Part shown: piece by piece, positions 14,124 to 53,451 of the stretch | How positions within the stretch are numbered: the stretch's first letter is position 1 | Layout of the letters: every line of letters starts with the position of its first letter | Source of the DNA: Arenicola marina | Taxonomy: Eukaryota > Annelida > Polychaeta > Arenicolidae | Direction: 5' to 3' | DNA length: 64,000 nucleotides | Assembly: GCA_964019135.1 (NCBI GenBank) | Contig: OZ025248.1 | Span: 15,693,574 to 15,757,573, forward strand | Notes under the pieces: model-generated | Told to the model about the DNA's origin: nothing | The model's input: the letters and a program-made list of their open reading frames with translations, nothing else | The model's database searches: none | Position numbers and translations under genes: made by a program

Positions 14124-16156
14124 ACCGTCTGCCCCTCCCCCCTCGCCGGCACCCCGACCAGCTAGCTGCACGGGCGTTGCGGCCCAGCTTATAGTCCCCC
14201 TTATTCGAGTGGGTTGTTGTTCTCTCGTGCGGCTTGCAATTATACGCACACTTTGTGATCTTAAAATAGGGCCCATCCATTTCAGCTCCTCTTCCAGGCA
14301 GGTGACAATGACTCGGAATCTCGAGTGACCGCTAAACCACTGTTCAGTGTCATACCCCGGGCAGTAGTGTGACTACTCATCACAGTTTCCGTGACGTTTC
14401 ACGTTGACTTCCCTTTCCAATACCTGCACCCTTGTTAACTCTGAACAATATTTACCATTGCCCCATGCAGCTCCATCCACCCTCAGCCCCTAGTCGGGGC
14501 ATTATCGCCCACTCCACGAGGTGCCACTTGCCATCGACCGACGGCTGCCTCGGTGGCGCCGAAAATACCTCGTCTAATGGTCGCTAGGGTAGCGCCTCCC
14601 AGTCCTAAACCTGGATGGAAGTAATTACTTGCACTATTTTCGTCCCTACGGAGTCAGGTTGACAGGGACCTTACGAACCCACGCGCTCGAAGCTAGACGT
14701 GCGCACGCAGACGGAGGAGGCTGTTGTTTTGTATTTTGTTCCCAAGATTTTCCTTTTTCATTATTCTTTCTTTTGTTTCCTGGTTTCCAAGCTCCTCGTC
14801 CGCAAAAGGAAAAGGCTTCCGGTGGGAGAGGCGTGAATGTATTAACGGGATTGCGTCACCCGTAGACGAAAAGTGTAACATCCGGATTATGTCTTCCGTC
14901 CACTACAATGAGCTTGACCGTAACAATTGACTTGACTGTGACTTTATTTGTGACGTATTTGGCCCCTCAGATCCAGATTTGACACCTTAGATCCAGACCC
15001 TGAGATCTATATTTGATACCTCAGATATATTGACCCCTCAGATCCATCAGCTCTAAAACTGTCGCTATAGTGAGCATTCTCTCAATTGTTGGCCTCATCC
15101 CAAAAGTGAAAGTCACTCTGTAGCGATTTCACTCGGTGCACAGCTAAAACCGAATTGCCCGTTTATTCAGTTTCGGTCTACATTTCTAGTTTCTACATCC
15201 CTACCATGCACGTTAGTTTCATAGCAACCAACTCAGTTATCCCCCCACCCCCACACTCACACAAACTCGCACCGCGGCAGTCGTCACCGCTCACGATCGC
15301 TCAACGCCTCGCTGTTGTTTTGATTAGCAGATTAGTGAGCCGTTATGAGATGATAAGGCATGCCGTGGTGTCTGGGCCCTGACTGTCACCAGGCATTAGA
15401 TGTCGGCCAGCTGTTCTTAATAGCTAATAGCTCTCGTAGGGTCCCATGTTAAAGATTGGACAAGACAAACCAACGTACTGATTGATAGATGCCTGAAAAA
15501 ACGAAGATTTTCCGTCATAATTATGGAATTTTTATTGCATTGTCACTGTGGTGTAAGCTGTTTATATGTATATATGGGTATATATAGGTATATATGTATG
15601 TATGAGCAATTGAGCCAGCAAGAGCAATTCACATAGGCAGAGTGCCTGTTTTTCTATTGAGAGAGAATAATCATTTATTTCGACCAGGAAAACAACAATG
15701 CACTACAACATACAGCAAAAACGAACAAAATACAATCCCTGGCCGAGGAGACCACCATTATGACATATTCGCTGGCATAGTGGCCACCTCAAAAAAAAGC
15801 AAAAAAAAAAAAAAAAAAAAAAAAAAACGGAGAACAATACTTTTATAAACAATACAATTATCGATAGACACCGTTAGAATTCAATAGAACATATGATATA
15901 AAAATTATAATTTGGGGGATTAGATAGAACGTAATATCTCTATAATTCTTTGCGGCAGACATAACAATTAACTTTGAAACAGTCAACACAGTACCTGTCA
16001 ATAAGTCTATTTTTTATTTATGTAGAGTAGCCCGCTATTGAATGGGTAAATATCTTCGTTAAAATGTTTTCTGAAGTTCGGTTTATTAAATGAGTCAAGT
16101 AATAGCGGATGCAATGTTCTGCAAATTTGTGCCTGGTTCTAGGTATAATTATATTG

Positions 16157-16237
16157 TGGGGGGGGGGCGGAGTAAGGGCGGGGGGAGGGCGGAGTAAGGG
16201 CGGGGGGGGCGGAGTAAGGGCGGGTGGGGGGGGGCGA
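16157..16237 (+). repeat. G-rich repeat cluster with G-quadruplex potential
   Basis: Four or more runs of 7-10 Gs alternate with CGGAGTAAGGGCGG units of about 20-25 bp. The runs are close enough to form intramolecular G-quadruplexes on the plus strand. Confidence 0.7.
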
Positions 16238-16376
16238 AGTGAAGTTTAGGGTTGGGCACTGGGGTGATGATAGGATAGAAATGGTGCAGATATTGGCTAG
16301 AGATGATGCGGTGATGGGCAGAGATGGGTTGAGCAAGCGTGTAGGGATATAGATCGGGTACAAATTGGGTGTAGAT

Positions 16377-16516
16377 GGGGTAGAGATGCCTTGGGGAGAT
16401 GGGATAGAGATGCCTAGGGGAGATTGCTTAGAGATGGGATAGAGATGCCTAGGGGAGATTGCTTAGAGATGGGATAGAGATGCCTAGGGGAGATTGCTTA
16501 GAGATGAGGTAGTGTA
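16377..16516 (+). repeat. Short tandem repeat, about 35-bp unit, 3-4 copies
   Basis: The unit consists of GAGATGGGATAGAGATGCCT followed by AGGGGAGATTGCTTA. It recurs three times nearly perfectly, with a degenerate copy on the left side that merges into related GATGGG-rich DNA. Confidence 0.85.
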
Positions 16517-16854
16517 AGGGTGTTTTAGCGAAGGTTGAGGTCTGCGCGTTGGTAGACCTCCCACGTCAAGCCACGTCGTCAAATAATCCGCTCTGGTAAA
16601 GACTATAGACAAAGTATAGTGATGTATTCTGAGACTTATAACGATAATTCATATTCCCTTAGTTTCGTTAAAATAAAATGAACGGTATTTTTTTTCGACT
16701 TGTATATAGGTTAATGTCATCGTGGTGAGCGATAATCGGTGTATAATCAACTCATTGGTGGATTGAGCAATTTGTGGAACGTTTGGTGTATTATTATTTT
16801 AACTGAGTTAGTCACAGCGTGGTGATACGGCAAACAACTGGATGGAATCTGAAT

Positions 16855-17043
16855 ATTGGGGGGGGGGGGGGGAGGAGCAAGGGTCGTGTTCCCATAACAC
16901 GAAGGATAAATTTCCTTATTCCCAGGTCACGATGAATTAAAAAGTTCGCATTATACATGGAAGGGTGGATACATGATATAAATTGGCGATTTCCAGACTC
17001 ACGTTACTTCATATTAAAAATCCCAGTTCACGAAAATCCTTGA
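16855..17043 (-). repeat. Second copy of the TCGTGAA dispersed repeat, at the LINE 3' flank
   Basis: Read on the minus strand, this segment contains TTTTCGTGAACTGGGA and TTCATCGTGACCTGGGAAT and ends in a poly-C tract after GCTCCT. The order and motifs resemble positions 1-381 on the plus strand. It directly follows the stop of the LINE reading frame, so it may be the 3' UTR or tail of that LINE family. Confidence 0.5.
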
Positions 17044-18012
17044 TCACGACGGTCGACTAATAAATACCCCACATCTGGTGTTATACTCATGTTGGTCTAA
17101 TATACGGGGAAAATGGAAAAAGGTAATAAAATATGCAGGGAGATCATCATGCAGCAGCCTATAATAAAACTTCAATGCCTGTAACTCATGAATGTCGACT
17201 ATTTTAAGAAGATTCAAACGCTTAAATAATGGCTCAGTGTGCGCAATATAGTGACTCTTTGTGATGATGCGAATAGCTTTTTTCTGGATTTTGTTCAACC
17301 GGTCACTTTTGTATCCCCAGGCTAATATGCAGTAGTGCAAGTGAGGTAAAATGAGCGAGTTATAAATGGTTAACAGAATATGCTGAGGAAGGGTATATTT
17401 TAGATGCTGCATGACTCCAACTACCTTAGATATTTTAAAAGCAATTTTATCACAGTGACTGGACCATTTCAGATGTTTATGTAGGGTCAATCCGAGAAAA
17501 TCAAAGTCGTCAACGCATTCCAGCTTAGTATTTTCAATATAAATTTTCGGTATCGTTACCCGCTTTTGTGGCATATAAAATAACATAAATTTGGTCTTTT
17601 TAATGTTTAGAGATAGTTGGTTAAGTTTAAGCCAATTGCTTACTAGAGACAGTTCGTGGTTTAACACTTCACTACTTTGGCGTACATTACTTTTTGGCGC
17701 TAGTGTACTTAGTGTGCTAGAAAGGGTTGTATCGTCAGCGTAAATAATTGCACTAAATATTGAACTCGCTCTTGATATGTCGTTTATATATATTATAAAT
17801 AGAAGAGGGCCAAGTATTGACCCCTGCGGTACTCCTCGGGATATCAGAACTTCTTGGGATTGAACATTGTCTATGCTTACGTACTGTTTGCGATTGTGAA
17901 GATAATTTTGTAGCAGCTTGAGCGCCAGCCCGGAAACCCCATAATGCTTTAGTTTAGTTAATAGTATGTCGTGATTAATGGTGTCAAAGGCTTTTGCTAA
18001 ATCAAGATACAT
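17044..18012 (-). pseudogene. LINE ORF2, reverse transcriptase core and C-terminal region
   Basis: The 322-codon segment starts at the catalytic motif DLAKAFDTINH. It continues with RGVPQGSILGPLLFIIYIND near 59-78 and the YADD active site at 91-94, then a thumb-like region with FDFLGLTLHKHLKW and a C-terminal Tyr/Leu-rich region. It belongs with 18164-19954. About 150 bp between them are open in a third frame, which contains the expected GFRKKNST motif. Two single-base changes, near 18170 and 18022, would account for the break. Either old decay or assembly error in homopolymers is possible. Confidence 0.88.
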
Positions 18013-18163
18013 GTTTATCGGATCTCCCCTTTATCTAGTTTATGTATGGTTCTATCAATTAATTCCAGTGTAGCTAATTGGGTTGAATTTTTTTTCCGGA
18101 AACCATACTGACCACTATTAAACAGGGTTTCGTGATCAAAGTGTTCATATATCTGATTATAGA

Positions 18164-19954
18164 TTACTTTTTCAAAACCTTAGATATGGCTGGCAAAATT
18201 GAAATTGGCCTATAGTTATCTATATTAGATATTTCCCCCTTCTTAAAAACCGGCACTACTTTTGCAAGTTTTAATTTATCCGGAAATATACCAGTAGAAA
18301 TTGATTGGTTAATGATGTGGGTAATTGGCTTGCTTAAATCTACTTTTAATAGTTTCAGCATTTTCATTGACATGTCATCATGCCCAGAACTAGCCTTAGG
18401 TTTCAGCTCATCAATTATTTTATTAGTGACATTAGGGTCAATTAAAGTGAACACCAGTTTGTTTTTACAGGGATCGCCTAAATAGCTAGTATAACTTTGG
18501 TTTGGGTCCTGATTGATTTTTCTGGCAAGTTTAGTACCAATGGTGCTAAAAAAATCATTAAAGCCATTTGCTATAGCCGAACGGTCAGATGTTGGCTTTC
18601 CATTAATATTAAAGAGCTCAGGGAATTTGTCCTTTCGGTTTGACCTATTAATAACGGATCTTATTGCTTTCCAAGTTGCCTTGATATCCCTTTTACATTT
18701 TTCGAAAGCATGATGATAATACGATCTTTTGGCCAACCGAATGCTATTTTTTAGTAGGGTTTCATACGTCTTAAAATTGGTTTTGAGAGTATCGTATTGA
18801 CAGGAGGTTGGCGCTGTCATTTTAAGTTTTTTATAAAGTTTGTCCTTAAATGCTATTGACTTAATAATACCAGTGGTGATCCAGTTTGCCTTTTTGTGTT
18901 TTCTCTTATTAAATTTTACTGTCTTGCTTGGTAAACATATATCCCTAGCATGTGTAAATATATCCTCAAAGATCTCATAGTTACTGTTAGGATCGGCACA
19001 TAGGTCTCTGTCTAGTTGACCTAATACGTCTGCGTTGGCAATTTGTGTTTGGAATTTCTCCACTGATTGTGCATCATTGTTTTTTTTATTATTATATGTG
19101 GGCGTTTTGTTTGAGCGTCGCACATCGATGTCTAAAGATAAGTAATACGGCAGATGGTCTGAGATAGCCTTCAATATAATGCCAGCTGTTGTATTTAATG
19201 AGCTAGATGTTAACTTACATAGAAAATTATCAATCAACGTACCCCTATTACGCGACAGTCTAGTCGGCAAGGTGATTTTTGGAAGAAAACTACAAGCTAC
19301 AATGGTATCAAAGTAATCGCTAATTGCTGATTTTTCACAAATCTTTAAAAGGTCAATGTTAAAATCACCTGCTAGAATGCATTCTCTATGTGGTTTACTT
19401 CTCTCAAATGAAAGTATAACCTCAGTTAATTTTTGAGAAAACGTCGCATTATTTTCATTTATGTCACATGGAGGTCGATATATGTTACCTATCAACATTT
19501 TCCTGTCAGTGGGCCGTCCAGACACTTCAATAAATTGGGCTTCCCAAATGACTGATTTTACAGGGTTTTCTATGCAGGTAAACTCATATGATTTGTGGAG
19601 ATATATCAACAGGCCTCCACGCGCACTACAGTATTTACCCTGTGATATTAATACATAGTCTTCGAGTTCATACAGGCCAGTATCATCATCATCGGATAAC
19701 CAGGTTTCCTGTAAACATATTGCACTTAACACCACATGACCAGCATGTAAGACATCAAGAAACACTTTCAGTTGGTCGATCTTGGAACGAATTGAGGCAA
19801 TATTTAAGCTGAGTATAGAGAACGGATGTCGGTTACGTTCAATGACATCAATAAACGCATCCACATCACAATAAGGTGAATGTTCAATAATAATTTCTTC
19901 CGTACAAACAATGGCAACATTTTTTTGTCGTAACGTCTCATTTAATGAATTCAA
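18164..19954 (-). pseudogene. LINE ORF2, endonuclease and start of reverse transcriptase
   Basis: The roughly 596-codon segment has the endonuclease signature from residue about 45 to 275. It reads FSILSLNIASIRSK near 45-58, CLQETWL with its catalytic Glu near 83, and GNIYRPP near 156-162. LAGDFNIDLL lies near 194-203, and an SDHLP metal/histidine motif at 265. A linker rich in basic residues follows, and the frame ends shortly after the reverse-transcriptase entry motif VVPVFKKG...YRPISILP. The frame breaks at about 18170-18176 in a T/A-rich run, consistent with a single missing base. The listed left end of the open frame has a TTG codon rather than ATG, so the true start is unknown. Confidence 0.88.
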
Positions 19955-21154
19955 GTTTATGCCCCCAATATGTTTTAAAATGTTCTATGCATAAAACCAA
20001 TTTTATATTAACAAAAATCTCCGCGAACTCAAACATCAAACAAATAAAAACATGGAACCAAACTTGCATAAAAACAGTTCTGTCAATGTTCATTACGTAG
20101 GCTAACTCCGTAGGCACATCAGGGTAGCGCAAAGACAAATTATGAGAGTGACGACATTCTTAGATACTACAGGTTACAATGGGGAAAAACCCCAAAAACA
20201 AACGTTCATTTCCCTTCACGCTTCGACGCCGTTAATAATAGCCGACGCCTGGCCAACTACCCACTCCCGGAGAAGGCCTCCGGACACTCAGGAGGCAAAT
20301 GCCACGTGGGTAGCTGACTAGGACTCCTCTCTCTAGCGGGTGGAGAGAACCCCTTCGGGAGGGAGGAATACGCGTATGAGGCGCGATAATGAAACAATGT
20401 AGGGGGTGGGAAGGTACTAAGGGCGCTTAAAGAGCGGCCAACTCAGTGTGATCAACTCAATAGCTCCCTGTACCGATTTGATATCATACATCTCAGATTG
20501 GTAACCGAGCTTGTTAAAGGCTATACAGATCATTATCCCGCCAATATCGCCCCCCCCCCCCACCAGCGGCATTGTAAAACACTAACATGTAAAGAGAAAG
20601 CAAGCTCCAAGCTGCCGGAGCGGACATAGCGTGAACAAATACAGTCTTAAGACGTTCTGAGAGATCGAGTTGCATGTCACTAACTTAATTTGTTGTCCCT
20701 AGAACCTAATTAACATGCCTCTTGAAATTACGTTTCTCGAAATCGACTCATCGACAACTTAATTGTGAGCAAAGTTAACTAGCTTACACACATAACATGA
20801 AAGCGGGCATGAATGAATGTAACGGATACATGTTCTCCATGTCAACAACAGAGCAATCTCGGAACAGCAATTAAATGTATTCTTTACATGGGAGAACGAC
20901 TCATTGTTTTACCCAGCTCCACAGAACCGTGCACAGATGGTGATTGGGGGGATGCGGTGGGGGGTCGTGCAATTGACATTGACATTGAGGTAAACATAAA
21001 CATAAACATAGCCCTTGGCCTGGGCAGGTGTTTGTTTTACAACCCATAGCAAGATAGCATTATTCTCAGGACCTACACTGCCGGGATGATGCTACACACC
21101 TGGATAATTGAACTCAATCCTGAGCCGTTGTTGTCGTTGGCGATAGTTCATAGT
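19955..21154. other. LINE upstream region and unique DNA; no supported gene
   Basis: The part next to 19955 is probably 5' UTR or unrecognised coding sequence of the LINE. A minus-strand frame (19938-20138) overlaps its start but shows no domain. Around 20260-20370 there are GC-rich inverted bits (CCTCCGGACACTCAGGAGG) without a recognised RNA family. A C-run lies near 20551-20561 and CATAAA repeats near 20995-21015. Confidence 0.4.
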
Positions 21155-21836
21155 TCATGTCGTCTGGAGCCCTCGTAGCGCGGTTGTCACGGCCGACTCC
21201 AGAAGTTTGAATCTCTCACTTCCGGATAGTCGGCTCGCGTAGCGTTTGGTGATGACGACAACGGCGTTGGTCAGATTATGTCGCCTCAGGAGGTAGCGAA
21301 CATGTCGTCCGGCGCCGAAGTCCCCGTCGTCCTGCCAGCCTTCTTGGTTGTCTGAGAGGCGATAGGCAGTGATGTTGTGCCTGGCGCCGGCCCTCACAGG
21401 GTCCATCAGTAGGCGACGGTATGCTGTGCGGACGTCCTTCAGGGTCTGAGCTTTGATAATCGTTGCGCATGCCTTCGAACCGAGGGAAGTGACAACCTCC
21501 CCCACGGTGATTTGTTCTGGGTCCAGCATCTCATCGTCCCTTTCTCTGACTGTTAAGGCGAGTATGTTGTTAGTGGAAATCACAGGTAAGGGATCGTTTT
21601 GCCTTTGGTTGTTGACATACAGGCCATCATTGGTGACGCGGGTCTGTATTCGCTGCGGAGCTGCGCGATCCCTGGCCGCCTGCGCCCTCTCGCCGTAGCC
21701 CCTGCGACGCTCCAGGATTTCAACCGGGTATTGTGGTGTAATCCTAAGGGTGTCCTTGCCTTTCGGCAGACGTATGCGGGAAAACTCTAGCATATATTCA
21801 ATGTCCTTGTAGGAGAGCAATTTCGCCACAATTGCC
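21155..21836 (-). pseudogene. L1-type ORF1p C-terminal region joined to an IMPACT-family (UPF0029) domain, 5'-truncated
   Basis: The minus-strand frame starts inside a protein with AIVAKLLSYKDIEYML. It continues with LRITPQYPVEILERRR and RIQTRVTNDGLYVN, a pattern typical of the end of the RRM and the C-terminal domain of L1-type ORF1 proteins (Transposase_22). From about residue 110 to the end it shows IMPACT N-terminal features: HNITAYR near 151-157, QDDGDFGAG near 166-174, then NAVVVITKRY and SGSERF. The usual DDGE..GTAG and WYGG..LG..R motifs appear in shortened or altered form. The frame has no ATG at its start. The codon before the AIVAK segment is TAG and lies in the adjoining 25-bp minisatellite, so the N-terminus was cut off there. 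The stop TGA is at 21155-21157. It lies 1.2 kb upstream of the LINE ORF2 on the same strand and might be its ORF1. Family calls are from motif memory. Confidence 0.6.
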
Positions 21837-24800
21837 TACAGGGGTTTAACCTCAACCAGTTGCCTGGGGTTTAGCCTCTACCTGTTGCCCAGGGTTTAAC
21901 CTCTGCCTGTTGCCCGGGGTTTAGCCTCTGCCTGTTGCCCGGGGTTTAGCCTCTGCCTGTTGCCCGGGGTATAGCCTCTGCCTGTTGCTCGGGGTTTAGC
22001 CTCTGCCTGTTGCCCGGGGTTTAACCTCTGCCTGTTGCCCGGGGTTTAGCCTGTGCCTGTTGCTCGGGGTTTAGCCTCTGCCTGTTGCCCGGGGCTTAGC
22101 CTCTGCCTGTTGCCCGGGGTTTAGCCTGTGCCTGTTGCTCGGGGTTTAGCCTCTGCCTGTTGCCCGGGGCTTAGCCTGTGCCTGTTGCCCGGGGTTTAAC
22201 CTCTGCCTGTTGCCCGGGGTTTAGCCTGTGCCTGTTGCCCGGGGTTTAACCTCTGCCTGTTGCCCGGGGCTTAGCCTCTACCTGTTGCCCGGGGTTTAAC
22301 CTCTGCCTGTTGCCCGGGGTTTAGTCTCTGCCTGTTGCTCGGGGTTTAGCCTCTGCCTGTTGTCCGGGGTTTAACCACTGCCTGTTGCCCGGGGTTTAGG
22401 CCTGTTGCTCGGGGTTTAGCCTCTGCCTGTTGTCCGGGGTTTAGCCTCTGCCTGTTGCCCGGCGTTTAACCTCTGCCTGTTGCCCGGGGTTTAGCCTCTA
22501 CCTGTTGCCCGGGGCTTATCCTCTGCCTGTTGTCCGGGGCTTAGCCTCTGCCTGTTGCCCGGCGTTTAACCTCTGCCTGTTGCCCGGGGTTTAGCCTCTA
22601 CCTGTTGCCCGGGGCTTATCCTCTGCCTGTTGTCCGGGGTCTAGCCTGTGCCTGTTGCTCGGGGTTTAGCCTCTGCCTGTTGTCCGGGGTTTTGCCTCTG
22701 CCTGTTGCCCGGGGTTTAACCTCTGCCTGTTGTCCGGGGTTTAACCTCTGCCTGTTGCCCGGGGTTTAGCCTCCACCTGTTGCCCGGGGCTTAGCCTCTG
22801 CCTGTTGTCCGGGGTTTAGCCTCCACCTGTTGCCCGGGGTTTAGCCTCTGCCTGTTGCCCGGGGTTTAACCTCTGCCTGTTGCCCGGGGTTCAGCCTCTA
22901 CCTGTTGCCCGGGGTTTAACCTCTGCCTGTTGCCCGGGGTTTAACCTCTGCCTGTTGCCCGGGGTTCAGCCTCTACCTGTTGTCCGGGGTTTAGCCTGTG
23001 CCTGTTGCTCGGGGTTTAGCCTCTGCCTGTTGTCCGGGGTTTAGCCTCTGCCTGTTGCCCGGGGTTTAACCTCTGCCTGTTGCTCGGGGTTTAGCCTCTA
23101 CCTGCTGCCCGGGGTTTAGCCTCTGCATGTTGTCCGGGGTTTAGCCTCTGCCTGTTGCTCGGGGTTTAGCCTCTGCCTGTTGTCCGGGGTTTAGCCTCTG
23201 CCTGTTGCCCGGGGTTTAACCTCTGCCTGTTGCCCGGGGTTTAGCCTCTACCTGTTGCCCGGGGCTTAGCCTCTGCCTGTTGTCCGGGGTTTAGCCTCTG
23301 CCTGTTGCTCGGGGTTTAGCCTCTGCCTGTTGTCCGGGGTTTAGCCTCTGCCTGTTGCCCGGGGTTTAACCTCTGCCTGTTGTCCGGGGTTTAGCCTCTG
23401 CCTGTTGCTCGGGGTTTAGCCTCTGCCTGTTGTCCGGGGTTTAGCCTCTGCCTGTTGCCCGGGGTTTAACCTCTGCCTGTTGCCCGGGGTTTAGCCTCTA
23501 CCTGTTGCCCGGGGCTTAGCCTCTGCCTGTTGTCCGGGGCTTAGCCTCTGCCTGTTGTCCGGGGTTTAGCCTCTGCCTGTTGTCTGGGGTTTAGCCTCTA
23601 CCTGTTGCCCGGGGTTTAACCTCTGCCTGTTGTCCGGGGTTTAGCCTCTACCTGTTGTCCGGGGTTTAGCCTCTGCCTGTTGTCCGGGGTTTAGCCTCTG
23701 CCTGTTGCTCGGGGTTTAGCCTCTGCCTGTTGTCCGGGGTTTAGCCTCTGCCTGTTGCCCGGGGTTTAACCTCTGCCTGTTGCCCGGGGTTTAGCCTCTA
23801 CCTGTTGCCCGGGGCTTAGCCTCTGCCTGTTGTCCGGGGTTTAGCCTCTGCCTGTTGCTCGGGGTTTAGCCTCTGCCTGTTGTCCGGGGTTTAGCCTCTG
23901 CCTGTTGCCCGGGGTTTAACCTCTGCCTGTTGTCCGGGGTTTAGCCTCTGCCTGTTGCTCGGGGTTTAGCCTCTGCCTGTTGTCCGGGGTTTAGCCTCTG
24001 CCTGTTGCCCGGGGTTTAACCTCTGCCTGTTGCCCGGGGTTTAGCCTCTACCTGTTGCCCGGGGCTTAGCCTCTGCCTGTTGTCCGGGGCGTAGCCTCTG
24101 CCTGTTGTCCGGGGTTTAGCCTCTGCCTGTTGTCCGGGGTTTAGCCTCTACCTGTTGCCCGGGTTTAACCTCTGCCTGTTGTCCGGGGTTTAGCCTCTAC
24201 CTGTTGCCCGGGGTTTAGCCTCTGCCTGTTGTCCGGGGTTTAGCCTCTACCTGTTGCCCGGGGCTTAGCCTCTGCCTGTTGCCCGGGGTTTAACCTCTGC
24301 CTGTTGCCCGGGGTTCAGCCTCTACCTGTTGCCCGGGGTTTAACCTCTGCCTGTTGCCCGGGGTTTAACCTCTGCCTGTTGCCCGGGGTTCAGCCTCTAC
24401 CTGTTGTCCGGGGTTTAGCCTGTGCCTGTTGCTCGGGGTTTAGCCTCTGCCTGTTGTCCGGGGTTTAGCCTCTGCCTGTTGCCCGGGGTTTAACCTCTGC
24501 CTGTTGCCCGGGGTTTAGCCTCTACCTGTTGCCCGGGGCTTAGCCTCTGCCTGTTGTCCGGGGTTTAGCCTCTGCCTGTTGCTCGGGGTTTAGCCTCTGC
24601 CTGTTGTCCGGGGTTTAGCCTCTGCCTGTTGCCCGGGGTTTAACCTCTGCCTGTTGTCCGGGGTTTAGCCTCTGCCTGTTGCTCGGGGTTTAGCCTCTGC
24701 CTGTTGTCCGGGGTTTAGCCTCTGCCTGTTGCCCGGGGTTTAACCTCTGCCTGTTGCCCGGGGTTTAGCCTCTACCTGTTGCCCGGGGCTTAGCCTCTGC

Positions 24801-27800
24801 CTGTTGTCCGGGGCTTAGCCTCTGCCTGTTGTCCGGGGTTTAGCCTCTGCCTGTTGTCTGGGGTTTAGCCTCTACCTGTTGCCCGGGGTTTAACCTCTGC
24901 CTGTTGTCCGGGGTTTAGCCTCTACCTGTTGTCCGGGGTTTAGCCTCTGCCTGTTGTCCGGGGTTTAGCCTCTGCCTGTTGCTCGGGGTTTAGCCTCTGC
25001 CTGTTGTCCGGGGTTTAGCCTCTGCCTGTTGCCCGGGGTTTAACCTCTGCCTGTTGCCCGGGGTTTAGCCTCTACCTGTTGCCCGGGGCTTAGCCTCTGC
25101 CTGTTGTCCGGGGTTTAGCCTCTGCCTGTTGCTCGGGGTTTAGCCTCTGCCTGTTGTCCGGGGTTTAGCCTCTGCCTGTTGCCCGGGGTTTAACCTCTGC
25201 CTGTTGTCCGGGGTTTAGCCTCTGCCTGTTGCTCGGGGTTTAGCCTCTGCCTGTTGTCCGGGGTTTAGCCTCTGCCTGTTGCCCGGGGTTTAACCTCTGC
25301 CTGTTGCCCGGGGTTTAGCCTCTACCTGTTGCCCGGGGCTTAGCCTCTGCCTGTTGTCCGGGGCGTAGCCTCTGCCTGTTGTCCGGGGTTTAGCCTCTGC
25401 CTGTTGTCCGGGGTTTAGCCTCTACCTGTTGCCCGGGTTTAACCTCTGCCTGTTGTCCGGGGTTTAGCCTCTACCTGTTGCCCGGGGTTTAGCCTCTGCC
25501 TGTTGTCCGGGGTTTAGCCTCTACCTGTTGCCCGGGGCTTAGCCTCTGCCTGTTGCCCGGGGTTTAGCCTCTACCTGTTGCCCGGGGCTTAGCCTCTGCC
25601 TGTTGTCCGGGGTTTAGCTTCTGCCTGTTGCCCGGGGTTTAACCTCTGCCTGTTGTCCGGGGTTTAGCTTATGCCTGTTGCCCTGGGTTTAGCCTCTACC
25701 TGTTGCCCGGGGTTTAGCCTCTGCCTGTTGTCCGGGGTTTTGCCTCTGCCTGTTGCCCGGGGTTTAACCTCTGCCTGTTGCCCAGGGTTTAACCTCTGCC
25801 TGTTGCCCGGGGTTTAGCCTCCACCTGTTGCCCGGGGCTTAGCCTCTGCCTGTTGTCCGGGGTTTAGCCTCTGCCTGTTGTCCGGGGTTTAGCCTCTGCC
25901 TGTTGCCCGGGGTTTAACCTCTGCCTGTTGCCCGGGGTTCAGCCTCTACCTGTTGCCCCGGGTTTAACCTCTGCCTGTTGCCCGGGGTTTAACCTCTGCC
26001 TGTTGCCCGGGGTTCAGCCTCTACCTGTTGTCCGGGGTTTAGCCTGTGCCTGTTGCTCGGGGTTTAGCCTCTGCCTGTTGTCCGGGGTTTAGCCTCTGCC
26101 AGTTGCCCGGGGTTTAACCTCTGCCTGTTGCTCGGGGTTTAGCCTCTACCTGCTGCCCGGGGTTTAGCCTCTGCCTGTTGTCCGGGGTTTAGCCTCTGCC
26201 TGTTGCTCGGGGTTTAGCCTCTGCCTGTTGTCCGGGGTTTAGCCTCTGCCTGTTGCCCGGGGTTTAACCTCTGCCTGTTGCCCGGGGTTTAGCCTCTACC
26301 GGTTGCCCGGGGCTTATCCTCTGCCTGTTGTCCGGGGTTTAGCCTCTGCCTGTTGCTCGGGGTTTAGCCTCTGCCTGTTGTCCGGGGTTTAGCCTCTGCC
26401 TGTTGTCCGGGGTTTAGCCTCTGCCTGTTGCCCGGGGTTTAACCTCTGCCTGTTGCCCGGGGTTTAGCCTCTACCTGTTGCCCGGGGCTTAGCCTCTGCC
26501 TGTTGTCCGGGGCTTAGCCTCTGCCTGTTGTCCGGGGTTTAGCCTCTGCCTGTTGTCCGGGGTTTAGCCTCTACCTGTTGCCCGGGGTTTAACCTCTGCC
26601 TGTTGTCCGGGGTTTAGCCTCTACCTGTTGCCCGGGGTTTAGCCTCTGCCTGTTGTCCGGGGTTTAGCCTCTGCCTGTTGCTCGGGGTTTAGCCTCTGCC
26701 TGTTGTCCGGGGTTTAGCCTCTGCCTGTTGCCCGGGGTTTAGCCTCTGCCTGTTGCCCGGGGTTTAACCTCTGCCTGTTGCCCGGGGTTTAGCCTCTACC
26801 TGTTGCCCGGGGCTTAGCCTCTGCCTGTTGTCCGGGGTTTAGCCTCTGCCTGTTGCTCGGGGTTTAGCCTCTGCCTGTTGTCCGGGGTTTAGCCTCTGCC
26901 TGTTGCCCGGGGTTTAACCTCTGCCTGTTGTCCGGGGTTTAGCCTCTGCCTGTTGTCCGGGGTTTAACCTCTGCCTGTTGCCCGGGGTTTAGCCTCTACC
27001 TGTTGCCCGGGGCTTAGCCTCTGCCTGTTGTCCGGGGCTTAGCCTCTGCCTGTTGTCCGGGGTTTAGCCTCTGCCTGTTGTCCGGGGTTTAGCCTCTACC
27101 TGTTGCCCGGGGTTTAGCCTCTGCCTGTTGTCCGGGGTTTAGCCTCTACCTGTTGCCCGGGGTTTAGCCTCTGCCTGTTGTCCGGGGTTTAGCCTCTACC
27201 TGTTGCCCGGGGCTTAGCCTCTGCCTGTTGCCCGGGGTTTAGCCTCTACCTGTTGCCCGGGGCTTAGCCTCTGCCTGTTGTCCGGGGTTTAGCTTCTGCC
27301 TGTTGCCCGGGGTTTAACCTCTGCCTGTTGTCCGGGGTTTAGCTTATGCCTGTTGCCCTGGGTTTAGCCTCTACCTGTTGCCCGGGGTTTAGCCTCTGCC
27401 TGTTGTCCGGGGTTTAACCTCTGCCTGTTGCCCGGGGCTTAGCCTCTGCCTGTTGTCCGGGGCTTAGCCTCTGCCTGTTGTCCGGTGTTTAGCCTCTGCC
27501 TGTTGCCCGGGGTTTAGCTTCTGCCTGTTGTCCGGGGTTTAGCTGCCTGTTGTCCGGGGCTTAGCCTCTGCCTGTTGTCCGGGGTTTAACCTCTGCCTGT
27601 TGCCCGGGGTTTAGCCTCTGCCTGTTGTCCGGGGTTTAGCTTCTGCCTGTTGTCCGGGGCTTAGCCTCTGCCTGTTGTCCGGGGTTTAGCCTCTGCCTGT
27701 TGTCCGGGGTTTAGCCTCTGCCTGTTGTCCGGGGCTTAGCCTCTGCCTGTTGTCCGGGGTTTAGCCTCTGCCTGTTGTCCGGGGCTTAGCCTCTGCCTGT

Positions 27801-28210
27801 TGTCCGGGGTTTAACCTCTGCCTGTTGCCCGGGGTTTAGCCTCTGCCTGTTGTCCGGGGCTTAGCCTCTGCCTGTTGTCCGGGGTTTAGCCTCTGCCTGT
27901 TGCCCGGGGTTTAGCCTCTGCCTGTTGTCCGGGGCTTAGCCTCTGCCTGTTGTCCGTGGTTTAGCCTCTGCCTGTTGTCCGGGGTTTAACCTCTGCCTGT
28001 TGCCCGGGGTTTAGCCTCTGCCTGTTGTCCGGGGCTTAGCCTCTGCCTGTTGTCCGTGGTTTAGCCTCTGCCTGTTGTCCGGGGTTTAGCCTCTGCCTGT
28101 TGTCCGGGGTTTAACCTCTGCCTGTTGCCCGGGGTTTAGCCTCTGCCTGTTGTCCGGGGCTTAGCCTCTGCCTGTTGTCCGGGTTTAGCCTCTGCCTGTT
28201 GCCCGGGGTT
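21836..28210 (+). repeat. 25-bp GC-rich minisatellite, about 255 copies
   Basis: The unit consists of TTTAGCCTCTGCCTGTTG followed by CCCGGGG, with common variants TTTAACC, CTTAGCC, CTCTACC, TGTCC and TGCTC. The period is a strict 25 bp except for a few 24-bp units and small deletions. Because 25 is not a multiple of three, no long frame survives. Rare variants recur at fixed long distances, showing higher-order structure (offsets of 1,274 and 1,675 bp). Confidence 0.97.
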
Positions 28211-32075: not shown

Positions 32076-35000
32076 AGGGCGAAGGGCGAAAGGAGAGGAA
32101 GAGAGAAGGGCGAGGGGAGAGAAAGAGAGAGGGGGGAAAGGAAGGGGAAGAGAGAAGGGCGAGGGGAGAGAAAGAGAGAAGGGTGAGGGGAGAGAAAGAA
32201 TGAAGGGTGAGGGGAGAGAAAAAGAGAAGGGGGACGGGAGAGAAAGAGAGAAGGGCGAGGGGAGAGGAAGGGAGAAGGACGAAGGGAGAGAAAGAGAGAA
32301 AGACGAGGGGAGAGAAAGAGAGAACGGCGAGGGTAGAGAAAGAGATAAGGGCGAAGGGAGAGGAAGGGAGAAGGGCGATGGGAGAGAAAGAGAGAAGGGC
32401 GAGGGGAGAGAAAGAGATAAAGGCGAAGGGAGAGGAAGAGAGACGGGCGAGGGGATAGAAAGAGAAAAGGGCGAGGGGAGAGAAAGAGAGAAGGGCGAGG
32501 GGAGAGGAAGAGAGATAGGCGAGGGGAGAGAAAGAGAGAAGGGCGAGGAGAGAGGGGAGAGAAAGAGAGAAGGGCGAGGGGAGAGAAAGAGAGAAGGGCG
32601 AGGGGAGAGAAAGAGAGAAGGGCGAAGGGAGAGGAAAAGAGATAAGCGAGGGGAGAGAAAGGGAGAAGGGCGAGGGTAGAGAAAGAGCGAAGAGCGAGGG
32701 GAGAGAAAGAGAGAAGGGCGAAGGGAGAGGAAGAGAGAAGGGCGAGGGGAGAAAAAGAGCGAAGGGCGAGGGGAGAGAAAGAGTGAAGGGTGAGGGGAGA
32801 GAAAAAGATAAGGGGGAGGGGAGAGAAAGAGAGAAGGGCGAGGGGAGAGAAAGAGAGAAGGGCGAAGGGAGAGAAACAGAGAAGGGCGAGGGGGGAGAAA
32901 GAGAGAAGGGCGAGGGGAGAGAAATGGAGAAGGGCGAGGGGAGAGAAAGGGAGAAAGGCGAGGGGAGAGAAAGAGAGAAGGGCGAGGGGAGAGGGGAGAG
33001 GAAGGGCGAGGGTAGAGAAAGAAAGAAGGGCGAGCGGAGAGAAAGAAAGGCGAGGGGAGAGAAAGAGAGAAGGGCGAGGGGAGAGAAAGAGAGGAGGGCG
33101 AGGGGAGAGAAAGAGAGAAGGGCGAGGGGAGAGAAAGGGAGAAGGGCGAGGGGAGAGAAAGAAAGAAGGGCGAGGGGAGAGAAAGAGAGAAGGGCGAGGG
33201 GAGAGAAAGAGAGAAGGGCGAGGGGAGAGAGAGAGAGAAAGACGAGGGCAGAGAAAGAGAGGAGGGCGAGGGGAGAGAAAGAGAGAAGGGTGAAGGGAGA
33301 GAAAGAGAGATGGGCGAGGGGAGAAAAAGAAAGAAGGGCGAGGGGAGAGAAAGAGAGAAGGGCGAGGGGAGAGAAAAAGAGAAGGGTGAAGGGAGAGAAA
33401 AGGAGATGGGCGAGGGGAGAGAAAGAAAGAAGGGCGAGGGGAGAGGAAGAGAGAAGGGCGAGGGGAGAGAAAGAGAGAAGGGCGAGAGGGGAGCCAGAAA
33501 GAAGGGCGAGGGGAGAGAAAGAGAGAAGGGCGAGGGGAGAGAAAGAGAGAAGGGGGAGGGGGGGGGGAGAAAGAAGGGCGAGGGGAGAGAAAGAGAGAAG
33601 GGCGAGGGGAGAGAAAGAGAGAAGGGTGAGGGTAGAGAAAGAGAGAAGGGCGAGGGCAGAGAAAGAGAGAAGGCTGAAGGGAGAGAAAGAGAGATGGGCG
33701 AGAGGAGAGAAAGAGAGAAGGGCGAGAAAAGAGAAAGGGAGAAGGGCGAGGGGAGAGGGGAGAGAAAGAGAGAAGGGCGAAGGAAGAGGAAGGGAGAAGG
33801 GCGAGGAGAGAGAAAGAGAAGAGGGCGAGGTGAGAGAAAGAGAGAGGGGCGAGGGGAGAGAAAGAGAAGGGCGAGGGGAGAGAAAGAGAGAAGGGCGAGG
33901 GGAGAGAAAGGGAGAAGGGCGAGGGGGGAGAAAGGGAGAAGGGCGAGGGAAGAGGGAAGAGAAAGAGAGAAGGGCGAGAGGAGAGGAAGGGAGAAGGGCG
34001 AGGGGAGAGAAAGAGAAGAGGGCGAGGTAAGAGGAAGAGAGAAGGACGAGGGGGGAGAAAGAAAGAAGGGCGAGGGGTGAGAAAGAGAGAAGGGCGAGGG
34101 GAGAGAAAGAGAGAAGGGCGAGGGGGGAGAAAGAAAGAAGGGCGAGGGGAGAGAAAGAGAGAAGGGCGAGGGGAGAGAAAGAGAGAAGGGCGAGGGGGGA
34201 GAAAGAGAGAAGGGCGAGAGAAGAGGAAGGGAGAAGGGCGAGGGGAGTGAAAGAGAGAAGGGCGAGGGGAGAGAAAGGGAGAAGGGCGAGGGGAGAGAAA
34301 GGGAGAAGGGTGAAGGGAGAGAAAGAGAGAAGGGCGAGAGAAGAGGAAGGGAGAAGGGCGAGGAGAGTGAAAGAGAGAAGGGCGAGGGGAGAGAAAGAGA
34401 GAAGGGCGAGGGGGGAGAAAGAGAGAAGGGCGAGGGGAGAGAAAGAGAGAAGGGTGAAGGGAGAGAAAGAGAGAAGGGCGAGAGAAGAGGAAGGGAGAAG
34501 GGCGAGGGGAGTGAAAGAGAGGAGGGCGAGGGGAGAGAAAGAGAGAAGGGCGAGAGAAGAGGAAGGGAGAAGGGCGAGGGGGGAGAAAGAGAGAAGGGCG
34601 AGGTGAGAGAAAGAGAGAGGGGCGAGGGGAGAGAAAGAAAAGGGCGAGGGGAGAGAAAGAGAGAAGGGCGAGGGGAGTGAAAGAGAGAAGGGCGAGGTGA
34701 GAGAAAGAGAGAGGGGCGAGGGGAGAGAAAGAAAAGGGCGAGGGGAGAGAAAGAGAGAAGGGCGAGGGGAGAGAAAGGGAGAAGGGCGAGGGGGGAGAAA
34801 GGGAGAAGGGCGAGGGGAGAGGGGAGAGAAAGAGAGAAGGGCGAGGGGAGAGAAAAAAAGTAGGACAAGGGGTAGAGAAAGGGAAACGGGCGAGGGGAGA
34901 CGAAGAAAGAAGGGCGAGGGAAGAGAAAGAGAGAAGAGCGAGGGGGGAGAAAGAAAGAAGGGCGAGGGGAGAGAAAGAGAGAAGGGCGAGTGGAGAGAAA

Positions 35001-38000
35001 GAGAGAAGGGCGAGGGGGAGGGGGGGGAGAAAGAAGGGCGAGGGGAGAGAAAGAGAGAAGGGCGAGGGGAGAGAAAGAGAGAAGGGTGAGGGTAGAGAAA
35101 GAGAGAAGGGCGAGGGGGGAGAAAGAAAGAAGGGCGAGGGGAGAGAAAGAGAGAAGGGCGAGTGGAGAGAAAGAGAGAAGGGCGAGGGGGAGGGGGGGGG
35201 GAGAAAGAAGGGCGAGGGGAGAGAAAGAGAGAAGGGCGAGGGGAGAGAAAGAGAGAAGGGTGAGGGTAGAGAAAGAGAGAAGGGCGGGGGCAGAGAAAGA
35301 GAGAAGGGTGAAGGGAGAGAAAGAGAGATGGGCGAGGGGAGAGAAAGAGAGAAGGGCGAGAAAAGAGAAAGGGAGAAGGGCGAGGGGAGAGGGGAGAGAA
35401 AGAGAGAAGAGCGAAGGAAGAGGAAGGGAGAAGGGCGAGGGGAGAGAAACAGAAGAGGGCGAGGTGAGAGAAAGAGAGAGGGGCGAGGGGAGAGAAAGAG
35501 AAGGGCGAGGGGAGACAAAGGGAGCAGGGCGAGGGGAGAGAAAGAGAGAAGGGCGAGAAAAGAGAAAGGGAGCAGGGCGAGGGGAGAGGGGAGAGAAAGA
35601 GAGAAGGGCGAAGGAAGAGGAAGGGAGAAGGGCGAGGGGAGAGAAAGAGAAGAGGGCGAGGTGAGAGAAAGAGAGAGGGGGGAGGGGAGAGAAAGAGAAG
35701 GGCGAGGGAAGAGAAAGAGAAGGGCGAGGGGAGTGAAAGGGAGAAGGGCGAGGGAAGAGGGGAGAGAAAGAGAGAAGGGCGAGGGGAGAGAAAGAGAAGA
35801 GGGCGAGGTGAGAGAAAGAGAGAGGGGCGAGGGGAGAGAAAGAGAAGGGCGAGGGGAGAGAAAGAGAAGGGCGAGGGGAGTGAAAGGGAGAAGGGCGAGG
35901 GAAGAGGGGAGAGAAAGAGAGAAGGGCGAGGGGAGAGAAAGGGAGAAGGGCGAGGGGAGAGAAAGAGAAGAGGGCGAGGTGAGAGAAAGAGAGAGGGGCG
36001 AGGGGAGAGAAAGAGAAGGGCGAGGGGAGAGAAAGAGAGAAGGGCGAGGGGAGAGAAAGAGAGAAGGGCGAGGGGAGAGAAAGAGAGAAGGGCGAGGGGA
36101 GAGAAAGAGAGAAGGGCGAGGGTAGAGAAAGAGAGAAGGGCGGGGGCAGAGAAAGAGAGAAGGGTGAAGGGAGAGAAAGAGAGATGGGCGAGGGGAGAGA
36201 AAGAGAGAAGGGCGAGAAAAGAGAAAGGGAGATAGGGCGAGGGGAGAGGGGAGAGAAAGAGAGAAGGGCGAAGGAAGAGGAAGGGAGAAGGGCGAGGGGA
36301 GAGAAACAGAAGAGGGCGAGGTGGGTCGAAAGAGAGAGGGGCGAGGGGAGAGAAAGAGAAGGGCGAGGGGAGATAAAGGGAGCAGGGCGAGGGGAGAGAA
36401 AGAGAGAAGGGCGAGAAAAGAGAAAGGGAGCAGGGCGAGGGGAGAGGGGAGAGAAAAAGAGAAGGGCGAAGGAAGAGGAAGGGAGAAGGGCGAGGGGAGA
36501 GAAAGAGAAGAGGGCGAGGTGAGAGAAAGAGAGAGGGGCGAGGGGAGAGAAAGAGAAGGGCGAGGGGAGAGAAAGAGAAGGGCGAGGGGAGAGAAAGGGA
36601 GAAGGGCGAGGGGAGAGAAAGAGAGAAGGGCGAGGGAAGAGGGGAGAGAAAGAGAGAAGGGCGAGGGGAGAGAAAGGGAGAAGGGCGAGGGGAGAGAAAG
36701 AGAAGAGGGCGAGGTGAGAGAAAGAGAGAGGGGCGAGGGGAGAGAAAGAGAAGGGCGAGGGGAGAGAAAGAGAGAAGGGCGAGGGAAGGGGGGAGAGAAA
36801 GAGAGAAGGGCGAGGGGAGAGAAAGAGAGAAGGGCGAGGGGAGAGAAAGAGAAGAGGGCGAGGTGAGAGAAAGAGAGAGGGGCGAGGGGAGAGAAAGAGA
36901 AGGGCGAGGGGAGAGAAAGAGAGAAGGGCGAGGGGAGAGAAAGGGAGAAGGGCGAGGGGAGAGAAAGAGAAGAGGGCGAGGTGAGAGAAAGAGAGAGGGG
37001 CGAGGGAAGAGGGGAGAGAAAGAGAGAAGGGCGAGGGGAGAGAAAGGGCGAGGGAAGAGGGGAGAGAAAGAGAGAAGGGCGAGGGGAGAGAAAGGGAGAA
37101 GGGCGAGGGGAGAGAAAGAGAAGAGGGCGAGGTGAGAGAAAGAGAGAGGGGCAAGGGGAGAGAAAGAGAAGGGCGAGGGGAGAGAAAGAGAGAAGGGCGA
37201 GGGGAGAGAAAGGGAGAAGGGCGAGGGAAGAGGGGAGAGAAAGAGAGAGGGGCGAGGGGAGAGAAAGAGAGAAGGGCGAGGGGAGAGAAAGAGAAGAGGG
37301 CGAGGTCAGAGAAAGAGGGAAGGGCGAGGGGAGAGAAAGAGAGAAGGGCGAGGGGAGAGAAAGAGAGAAGGGCGAGGGCAGAGAAAGAGAGAAGGCTGAA
37401 GGGAGAGAAAGAGAGATGGGCGAGAGGAGAGAAAGAGAGAAGGGCGAGAAAAGAGAAAGGGAGAAGGGCGAGGGGAGAGGGGAGAGAAAGAGAGAAGGGC
37501 GAAGGAAGAGGAAGGGAGAAGGGCGAGGAGAGAGAAAGAGAAGAGGGCGAGGTGAGAGAAAGAGAGAGGGGCGAGGGGAGAGAAAGAGAAGGGCGAGGGG
37601 AGAGAAAGAGAGAAGGGCGAGGGAAGAGGGGAGAGAAAGAGAAGGGCGAGGGGAGAGAAAGAGAGAAGGGCGAGGGGAGAGAAAGAGAGAAGGGCGAGGG
37701 GAGAGAAAGGGAGAAGGGCGAGGGGGGAGAAAGGGAGAAGGGCGAGGGAAGAGGGAAGAGAAAGAGAGAAGGGCGAGAGGAGAGGAAGGGAGAAGGGCGA
37801 GGGGAGAGAAAGAGAAGAGGGCGAGGTGAGAGGAAGAGAGAAGGACGAGGGGGGAGAAAGAAAGAAGGGCGAGGGGTGAGAAAGAGAGAAGGGCGAGGGG
37901 AGAGAAAGAGAGAAGGGCGAGGGGGGAGAAAGAAAGAAGGGCGAGGGGAGAGAAAGAGAGAAGGGCGAGGGGAGAGAAAGAGAGAAGGGCGAGGGGGGAG

Positions 38001-49844: not shown

Positions 49845-49876
49845 AAGATAAGATAAGATAAGATAAGATAAGATAA
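49845..49876 (-). repeat. 3'-terminal microsatellite tail of the LINE
   Basis: About six copies of the pentamer AGATA (TTATC on the element strand) separate the LINE 3' UTR from the purine satellite. Short tandem tails of this kind are typical 3' ends of CR1/L2-group LINEs. The exact pentamer may identify the family. Confidence 0.85.
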
Positions 49877-50031: not shown

Positions 50032-53000
50032 TTACCCATTAGCTATGTTACATAATGTGCACGAATTACAGTGACACAAGAACACATCCGAGGTTGACAG
50101 CGTTGTTTTAAATTCCTTGGCAGATTTGGCTAACTTCGTTTCCTTGTTGAGCATGTTCCATAGCTTGCTACCTTGATACTTCAATGAATTATGGCCATAA
50201 GCTGTTGTCTTAACGCGTGGCATACATATATTTGGCCCATTTTTTAAAATGTAATTGTTTTCCTTCACGTTATACATGTCATGAAGATAACTAGGCCCAA
50301 TCTTGTTGATACTCTTGTAAACTTCTAATGATATGCAGCGCAATCGTTCAACATATAGCAATGGTCTACCCGCTCTCTTCCTCAACTCTGCGTATTCTGA
50401 TCTAAAGTCATTAAACACATACCTCAATGCCCGCTCCTGTATCTTTTCAATCTTACGCATATTTTTCATATCACAAAAATGCCATACAACGGGACAATAA
50501 TTAAAATGTGAAAGAATAAAAGCATGAAATAACGTAAGTTTGCTATCAACATCCATTAATTTAGAAACTCTAGCTAAAACATTGAGACTTTTTCCAGCCT
50601 TCTTGCATAAACTTGATATATGGTTGCCGAAAGTTAACCTGGCGTCCAGTTGAATACCTAGTAGTGTTACTTCCTGTTGTGCTGCCAGTTCTGTTCCAGA
50701 AATCGAAAACGATCTGTGCTGACTTAATTCGTTTCTCTTTTCAAACACGATTGCCTGGTACTTACTTGGGTTCGCTTTCATGTAATTGTCGACGAACCAC
50801 GTTGTTATCTCCGATAACGCCTTCTCTAGAGTTACTTTAACCTTCTTAAATTCCTTACCTTGAGCCGCCACAGTATTATCATCAGCATAATTATACTTAT
50901 CGGTTCCCCGTGCGGTGGATACAAGCAGGTCATTCGTAAATACATTATACAGATGTGGACCAAAAACAGATCCCTGTGGTGCTCCTTTCTTGAGGGTAAG
51001 CCACTCGCTCCGATTATGTCCTAGTTTTACCCTCTGTTCGCGGTTCGTAAGATAGCTTGCAACTAGCGTACATGATTGTTTACTTATGCCATAAGCGTTC
51101 ATCTTGGTAATCAATAATCTGTGTGGAAGACAATCGAATGCTTTTGAGAGATCCATTAGTATAGCTCCCATAACTTGATTATTATCTAATGCATTTTTGG
51201 AGTCTTCAACTAAGCGCATCAGTAGGCTTTGACAACTGTGTCCCTTTCTAAACCCAGATAGTCTGGGTGATAACCTGGGTTCCATAAAGGACATAAGCTG
51301 GTCACACAATATTTTTTCATATATCTTGGAGATACAGGGAAGAACACTTACTGGTCTGTAGTTTTCCTTATTTAAGTTGTCCTTCTTCTTGAAAATTGGT
51401 GTGACTTCAGCGTATTTTAGTTCTTTTGGAAACGTATTACAATTAATCGTCATATTTAACACATACCTTAATGGCTCACACAGGATGGCAGCTCCCAGTT
51501 TGATAAGCTTCGGAGGTATCTTGTCGTAGCCACTAGCCTTCGACACGTCAATGCCTTTAAGTGCATTGTATATTTCGTGGCTACTTACTGCCCGAAAGTT
51601 AAAAGTTTCCGTTATACCTTGGTTACCTTCCTTTATAGCCATAACGGATTTATGATCTTTGTGATAAAGAAGGGTTTCGTCTATTGGTTGATCATCTGGT
51701 ATGTCATCTAGTTGGCCTATGTCTTTGGCAACGTCTATGAAATATTGATTAAATATGTCACTTACCTTTGATGGATCTGATATTATTTCGTCTCGCTCTT
51801 TCAGTAACACGTTTCCGCTGCTTGCGTTTTTTCTTGATATCAGTGGTTTTACAACTTTCCAGAATTCCTTCCCGTTAGTCGTAGCTTCGCTACATTTCCC
51901 CTTTATGTACTTTTGCATGCTTACTTTCCGAAGACGTCCTATGAGATTCCTTTGCTTTCTGTATTTTTCCCAATTCTCTTGGCTACTCAATTGCTCGTAC
52001 TTCCGTCTCAGCATATTTTTTACATTTATGGCTTTGCGAAGATGGCTATTCATATAGGGCACACAGTTATTCTTAACTACCCGTTGCTTGGTTGGTGCAT
52101 GTCTATCAACGACCTCTTTGATCAATGTGCTACAAAACCAATATGAATCATCAACATCTTCAAAGACTTCACCTACATGAAAAGGTACCGATGCTAGATC
52201 GTCTTTGTATTTAATCTCATCAAAATGTTTAAAGCTTCGATAATAGACACGTTTCTGCTGCCTAATGGGAACTTCTATTTTCGTTGCTACGCAAACCATA
52301 TGGTGAAAATCGCTGAGGCCCGTATCTATACATGATACATCTCGTAAGCGCTTCGACACATTTGTAATCACAACATCAATTAAGGTCGGTATTTTACCTT
52401 TGAAACAAGTTGGTGACTTAACGATATTTTTAGTACCATAGACCTCTAATACGTCATTCAGACAATTTTTATGGTTTAACATGTTTACATTTAAATCTCC
52501 CAACAGTACAAGGTTAACCTGTTCAGCAGCGATTGCATTCAGAAGGCTATCGATCTTTGTCACAAGTAATGCGTTTTTAACCTTCGGCTGCTTGTATACA
52601 CTGAGAAAGAGCCACTTTTCAGCATTCAGCGTCACTTCTATTGCCAGGGATTCGATACGCCCCTTCTCGTCTTCATTAATTTCTATATCCTTGCGCCGCC
52701 GGTGTGGTATATCGTCTCTTACCTGCACCATTATGCCTCCAGAGCTGTCTGTATTATCATTTCGGTGGACCTTGTACCCATTTAAAGTAAATTGGCCTGC
52801 CGGAAAGCTATCGTCTAACTTAGTCTCTTGAATGAACAAGACATCTAATGCGCCTTTTCCCAGTGCTTGGCTAAGCGGTCCAAACTTATGTCGTACGCTG
52901 TTTATGTTAATGTGGGCTATCTTGAGATTTTTTACATTTCTCTGATGAAATGGCGCGAGCCCAAATAACTCTTCATCTTCGTTGGCTTCGATCGCTGCCA

Positions 53001-53424: not shown

Positions 53425-53451
53425 ATCGGCCCTTCCTCCATTGCCGAATAC

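Follow-up and report, generated by a model that had tools for sequence, protein, structure and literature searches.

Results

The window encodes the C-terminal half of a LINE ORF1 protein with a terminal IMPACT domain

The DNA analyzed here, called the window throughout, is a stretch of 64,000 nucleotides from Arenicola marina (C1:15693574-15757573), and the 867-Mb host genome was searched along with it. The first 740 bases of the mitochondrial COX1 of this host translate free of stops if AGA codes for serine (tables 5, 9 and 14) and contain stops under table 2, in keeping with an invertebrate. A single open frame of 226 aa, followed by a stop codon, occupies 21835 to 21155 of the window's minus strand (Table 1); homology to the element begins at its residue 2 (blastn edge at 21834). 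Pfam returned the family UPF0029 (IMPACT, PF01205) at residues 120-220 of the translation (E value 5.3e-13, 49.3 bits, cut-off 27), as an earlier note on this DNA had anticipated, and the C-terminal half searched alone gave an E value of 1.4e-13. The sole PDB sequence match of the frame is an IMPACT homolog, 6bqi (E value 0.0035). As the N-terminal 65 aa searched alone produced no Pfam match and no significant PDB match, the window fragment by itself is insufficient to prove the L1 half. The frame encodes the C-terminal half of an ORF1 protein from a LINE: the end of an L1-type RRM, then a CTD-like part, then a UPF0029/IMPACT domain at the C-terminus. The fusion is real. The earlier reading, in which an L1-type C-terminal-domain pattern runs straight into IMPACT, holds as to the fusion, but the strand is the minus strand and IMPACT follows a short CTD-like part.

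Table 1. Coordinates of the truncated LINE copy and of the adjoining array within the window.
Feature	Position	Strand	Remarks
ORF1 3' part, 5'-truncated	21155..21835	-	residue 1 is the junction, residues 2-226 the element
L1-type RRM, its end	21731..21832	-	aligned to L061 residues 215-248
CTD-like part	21521..21730	-	aligned to L061 residues 249-318; helix and hairpin resemble the start of the human ORF1p CTD
UPF0029/IMPACT match	21176..21478	-	domain as aligned about 21158-21520
Spacer between ORF1 and ORF2	19985..21154	-	1170 nt; 357-1284 nt in nine relatives
ORF2 part 1, AP endonuclease and start of reverse transcriptase	18164..19984	-	82% identical to L061 ORF2
ORF2 part 2, reverse transcriptase, other frame (broken)	17044..18030	-	77% identical to L061 ORF2
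End of ORF2 region, homologous to L061	15956..16157	-	about 916 nt that L061 lacks (16158-17073) separate it from the rest
25-bp minisatellite, about 255 copies	21841..28210		adjoins the 5' cut of the LINE copy; the unit, with up to 4 mismatches allowed, occurs nowhere else in the window

The LINE ORF2 at 17044-19984 is the partner of this ORF1. Pfam recognizes PF03372 and PF00078 in it and in the four relatives scanned (4/4), and the spacer is similar in length to that of L061, where it measures 1284 nt. The window copy is damaged, being cut within ORF1, broken in the frame of ORF2 and, close to where ORF2 ends, split by a stretch of about 916 nt.

Two further repeats were noticed in the window. 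The stretch at 14840-15454 was considered as the 5' end of another copy and rejected, because the part of L061 that it matches is situated farther upstream than the point, about 100 nt before ORF1, at which elements usually begin; it is thus some other, unnamed repeat, 73-78% similar to the upstream flank of L061 and common to both places. A second LINE, which we take to be of the CR1 clade, occupies 50032-55176 on the minus strand and has an open ORF2 of 1139 aa; its ORF1 is likewise enlarged, but by PHD, GDSL esterase and CCHC parts.

Dispersed copies share one ORF1 architecture

A genome search with the window frame yielded at least 150 scored copies among 806 candidates, all with E values of 2.7e-55 or better; they are 44-100% identical to the window frame, are spread over many contigs, and many of them are stop-free open frames of about 440-480 aa. 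When the genome was searched for the UPF0029 family, at least 150 scored places of 289 candidates were above cut-off, one of them a host-like IMPACT exon. The full ORF1 has the order basic tail, coiled coil, RRM, CTD-like part and IMPACT, with the RRM and IMPACT halves in one frame in all nine full-length relatives compared. UPF0029 was matched in 9/9 relatives and lay above cut-off in 6/6 further full frames. A profile of the nine relatives retrieved five PDB sequences at E values of 1 or less, of two kinds: an IMPACT homolog (1e-8) and human LINE-1 ORF1p (best E value 3e-4). By sequence and by predicted fold, the close PDB matches are human LINE-1 ORF1p and IMPACT/YigZ; 1vi7, listed like 2cve as a hypothetical protein, is presumably YigZ. 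The profile matches to both kinds, with the nine single-frame copies, confirm the claim of the earlier note that an L1-type ORF1 is joined to IMPACT in one frame, and the dispersed full-length relatives with both domains and an upstream coiled coil that it had proposed to look for do exist.

The RRM is of the ORF1p kind, one of the features by which type II (L1-type) ORF1 proteins are recognized. Before it, the predicted model has a helix at residues 108-154, and the heptad excess at residues 112-154 was reached by fewer than 5% of shuffles in nine of ten elements (15% in L063). As to the CTD, residues 1-147 of a predicted model align to human ORF1p 149-302, and the last 30 residues have a pLDDT of about 63; the first structure model of ORF1 had a mean pLDDT of 65 and a pTM of 0.33. 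Human LINE-1 ORF1p (2yko, 2ykp, 2ldy) has the same order of coiled coil, RRM and start of the CTD, likewise upstream of ORF2. It differs from the window family, which adds the C-terminal IMPACT domain and is 16-19% identical to it in structural alignments, and the ORF2 is not of the L1/Tx1 kind in eight of the ten elements read. Transposase_22, which the earlier note had also expected, was absent from the Pfam matches of the ORF1 frames scanned and from a search of the host genome (0/17 candidates); control genomes likewise gave no match. An RWD domain gave no Pfam match at an E value of 1 in 6/6 full ORF1 frames and was absent from the families reported for 9/9 further ORF1 frames, the complete match table covering one member and the 25 most frequent families covering all nine.

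UPF0029 is a domain of host proteins, and the genome also has a host-like IMPACT exon of its own at C10:33245131; both would suit a single host gene (an IMPACT paralogue or retrogene) or a domesticated ORF1 with no mobile element involved. Against this stand the number of copies, their 5' truncations and poly-A ends, and the presence of ORF2, or its start, directly downstream of ORF1 in all ten elements read. Copy number and ORF2 linkage refute a single-copy host gene, including the single orthologous gene that the earlier note had held in reserve, and we regard this whole explanation as next to impossible.

At L019:736-2997, an ORF1 cut inside the IMPACT domain continues into ORF2 as one frame of 754 aa. 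Four regions (L076-L079), read from at least 150 scored RRM matches, represent a further ORF1 group with a more diverged IMPACT-like end, seen by eye in all four; the start M-D-K-W occurs in L076, L078 and L079. This end sits behind a stop codon in two of the four, L077 and L079. Pfam places UPF0029 just above cut-off in L076 and L078 and below it in L079, and does not call it in L077. Scans of viral contigs and other genome contigs gave no relatives of the fused ORF1.

One ORF1 type precedes three kinds of ORF2

Ten elements (L061-L070), picked for diversity, were read. ORF2 is devoid of a PHD finger in L061, L064 (interrupted after its start), L066, L067, L069 and the window copy, and carries a PHD-like finger in L062, L063 and L065, the Pfam match being below cut-off in L063 (E value 0.0014) and uncalled in L062. 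A Tx1/L1-type ORF2 is found in L068, with zf-RVT (PF13966, E value 5e-11), and in L070, which is 54% identical to L068 in ORF2; the name Tx1 for these two is our assumption. One ORF1 type precedes these three kinds of ORF2, of which one is Tx1/L1-like. The other two kinds we take to be L2/CR1 (Jockey superfamily), partly after PMC4120745.

Identities in the two frames do not run in parallel. L066 and L067 are 88-93% identical in ORF2 and 40% in ORF1, and L062 and L065 are 90% and 58% identical, respectively; conversely, L063 and L066 share 54% identity in ORF1 and 25-40% in ORF2. The ORF1s of the Tx1-type elements are 34-39% identical to the rest, comparable to L063 versus L064 (37%), and significant matches between Tx1-type and other ORF2s reach 21-26% identity over 194-458 residues. 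Among the seven non-Tx1 elements with ORF2, identities in ORF1 and ORF2 are uncorrelated (r = -0.06, 21 pairs), and with the Tx1 pair added r is 0.48. Within ORF1, the front and IMPACT parts covary (r = 0.64 in the ten elements; 8 of 10000 permutations as high). AU tests on groups chosen after the identities were known rejected L066+L067 (p-value 1e-50) and the PHD group (p-value 1.5e-4) on ORF1 data, and L063+L066 (p-value 4e-41) on ORF2 data, the ORF2 tree being built without L064.

The switch between unlike and like sequence is sharp. DNA identity between L066 and L067 rises from 3/20 to 20/20 at about 55 nt before the ORF2 frame, and between L062 and L065 from 5/20 to 19/20 at about 99 nt before it. 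Probes across the breakpoints (601 bases for L066) were searched against the host genome. The L066 probe gave 41 rows, of which 27 span base 301, 12 end at base 301, one begins at 302 and one is another piece; 25 of the spanning rows are nearly whole, and 23 of these are at least 97% identical, including four from one tandem array. With the L065 probe there were 42 rows, 22 spanning base 301 (13 nearly whole), 17 ending at base 300/301 and three other pieces. Since many rows span the breakpoint and many end at it, each arrangement has been amplified into a family and is hardly an error of assembly. At C3:6546016-6563243, four L066-type junctions recur with a period of about 5.54 kb, near the element length, probably as LINE copies arrayed head to tail.

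Old vertical inheritance with unequal rates, and no exchange of ORF1, would be compatible with the partly unresolved deep branches of both the ORF1 and the ORF2 tree and with the correlation of identities once the Tx1 pair is included. It is very unlikely to have made the pattern, given that the L066/L067 and L062/L065 pairs are so much closer in ORF2 than in ORF1, that identity in the first pair collapses at one point, and that the AU tests reject each frame's grouping on the data of the other. The conflict between ORF1 and ORF2 histories, together with breakpoints sharp to the base just upstream of ORF2, indicates that a 5' module has been exchanged between LINEs.

The window copy is cut at the edge of a 25-bp minisatellite

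With the homology edge at 21834 and the array start at 21841, the cut coincides with the edge of the array, so that the N-terminal half is missing at the array edge, as originally described. Beyond the array, in 28.2-32 kb, inspection by eye showed no frame of at least 40 aa resembling the ORF1 N-terminal half.

The earlier note had further supposed that the satellite expanded at, or was born from, a breakpoint inside the element. Several observations fit this. Arrays of at least three units, with units that differ between loci, terminate no more than about 15 nt from the cut in 10/21 truncated copies (L001, L007, L018, L021, L022, L032, L045, L048, L050 and L053) versus 3/27 intact 5' ends (Fisher p-value 0.008, for the loci in hand, which are not a random sample; duplicated loci were counted once among the truncated copies and kept among the intact ones, and two two-unit cases were scored as no). 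Within the window, the unit does not recur on the other side of the element, and the 3' side of L053 has a poly-A tail and no array. The array unit itself, however, was rejected as a derivative of ORF1, being no closer to it (15/25 matching) than shuffles (14-17 in 20 shuffles). Of six 3'-side pieces three were informative (L081 and L082 are still within the element and L083 is rearranged), and in two of these three the array of the cut reappears: in L045 directly after the poly-A tail, and in L050 as a piece, at the expected 3' end, that consists wholly of that array, its junction lying outside the piece. In L085 there is array alone, with no element sequence seen. Tandem arrays, moreover, make up about 61% of the window. 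Birth of the minisatellite at the breakpoint therefore seems improbable. Because the unit is unlike ORF1 and the same array is also present beyond the 3' end in two of the three informative relatives, the edge in the window most probably reflects 5' truncation of an element next to or within a pre-existing array; insertion into or beside existing arrays explains L045 and L050 and likely the window copy as well.

Among the tandem repeats of the window is a further array, at 32081-49848, which spans 17.8 kb and has a 24-bp unit.

The LINE IMPACT domain is conserved, basic and altered in its loop

For the least saturated pair, L061 and L025, dN/dS of the IMPACT part is about 0.10 (dN 0.112, dS 1.10), an estimate that rests on this single pair at a dS of 1.1; in the same pair dN/dS is 0.04 for the RRM and 0.10 for the CTD part, both with higher dS than IMPACT. 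In the other eight pairs, where dS is saturated or undefined, dN/dS of IMPACT is 0.08-0.31 in six and undefined in two. Among six near-identical copies, amino-acid-changing differences outnumber silent ones in the RRM (9 to 3) and in the coiled coil (5 to 1). In the CTD part there are five silent differences and one amino-acid-changing one, and the IMPACT part has a single, amino-acid-changing difference. Mean identity over 45 pairs is 46% for the IMPACT part, 47% for the RRM and 40% for the coiled coil. The IMPACT part is basic in all ten elements (pI 8.9-10.3), compared with 5.9 for the Yih1 stretch, the control being this one protein. The R-W-Y-G-G loop of a host IMPACT-like exon (L075) is altered in the LINE versions, with G-G kept in L068.

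Discussion

We consider it likely, on the evidence above, that the window frame belongs to a 5'-truncated LINE copy whose extended L1-type (type II) ORF1p bears a C-terminal IMPACT/YigZ domain with a role in packaging or target-primed reverse transcription, and whose 5' module is exchanged between LINEs. By analogy with L1, the coiled coil would make the ORF1p a trimer, and the RRM and CTD would coat the element RNA. The basic IMPACT domain could then act as a third nucleic-acid-binding part that helps to package the RNA or assists target-primed reverse transcription. Against this reading speak the lack of Transposase_22 matches, the modest first model, a dN/dS estimate from one pair, the excess of amino-acid-changing differences in the RRM and coiled coil of near-identical copies, a charge contrast drawn from one protein, and the sub-threshold or uncalled UPF0029 match in L079 and L077. 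As to the exchange, the 5'UTR-ORF1-spacer module would move between LINE lineages when reverse transcription, having started at the 3' end, switches to the RNA of another LINE just upstream of ORF2; such template switching would leave a common 3' part with differing 5' parts.

Alternatively, IMPACT may have been kept for contact with host translation-stress factors (GCN1, GCN2, actin or stalled ribosomes), allowing the element mRNA to be translated under stress. The domain is kin to eukaryotic IMPACT/Yih1, the sole IMPACT-family PDB sequence that the profile retrieves at an E value of 1 or less, and the ORF1p of mouse L1 reportedly counters the stress response by means of PRKRA (PMC10289378). 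In yeast, however, it is the GCN1-binding RWD domain that, overexpressed by itself, is inhibitory, and the function of the ancient IMPACT/YigZ domain is called unknown (PMC7140605). The ORF1s scanned have no detected RWD, and the LINE versions are basic, with the host loop altered in most and G-G retained in the Tx1-type L068. We hold a stress contact to be unlikely. Domain content gives no support to the link to GCN2 drawn in the earlier note, as RWD was not found in the ORF1 frames scanned (9/9 and 6/6), and the link is conjectural. It is similarly doubtful that a single capture of a host IMPACT gene by an L1-type ORF1 gave rise to a 5'UTR-ORF1-spacer cassette, shared across two superfamilies, that escapes stress surveillance; under that account, several LINE lineages would acquire the cassette by template switching because IMPACT lets element RNA escape translation-stress or ribosome-stall surveillance.

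The LINE domain departs from IMPACT/Yih1 and bacterial YigZ (PF01205; 6bqi) in that no RWD was found with it, it is basic and not acidic, its loop is altered in most elements, and it is borne by a retrotransposon. Of the LINE proteins, those of ORF1 are less well understood. Metcalfe and Casane (2014) described type II ORF1s in the L2 and CR1 lineages, Tnp22-type ORF1 in Jockey-superfamily elements and a PHD finger that probably opens ORF2 in L2 subgroup 5, and proposed reticulate evolution of ORF1 (PMC4120745). The domain table of that paper has no IMPACT/UPF0029 entry, and the word impact is absent from its main text. Beyond those L2/CR1 cases, the present breakpoints are resolved to single bases, and this ORF1 stands before a Tx1/L1-type ORF2 as well. 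Among the papers listed, no report of IMPACT/UPF0029 in a LINE was found by title or start of abstract, Repbase Reports and most subscription journals being outside the scope of the search; by title, none of the UPF0029 papers concerned transposons and none paired UPF0029 with a transposable element.

A conserved IMPACT-family domain in a LINE ORF1 makes the function of the ancient IMPACT/YigZ domain testable, and natural chimeras with mapped junctions do the same for the movement of ORF1 modules between LINE lineages. If Tx1-like and L2-like elements do share this ORF1, then ORF1 evolution crosses the borders of LINE superfamilies.
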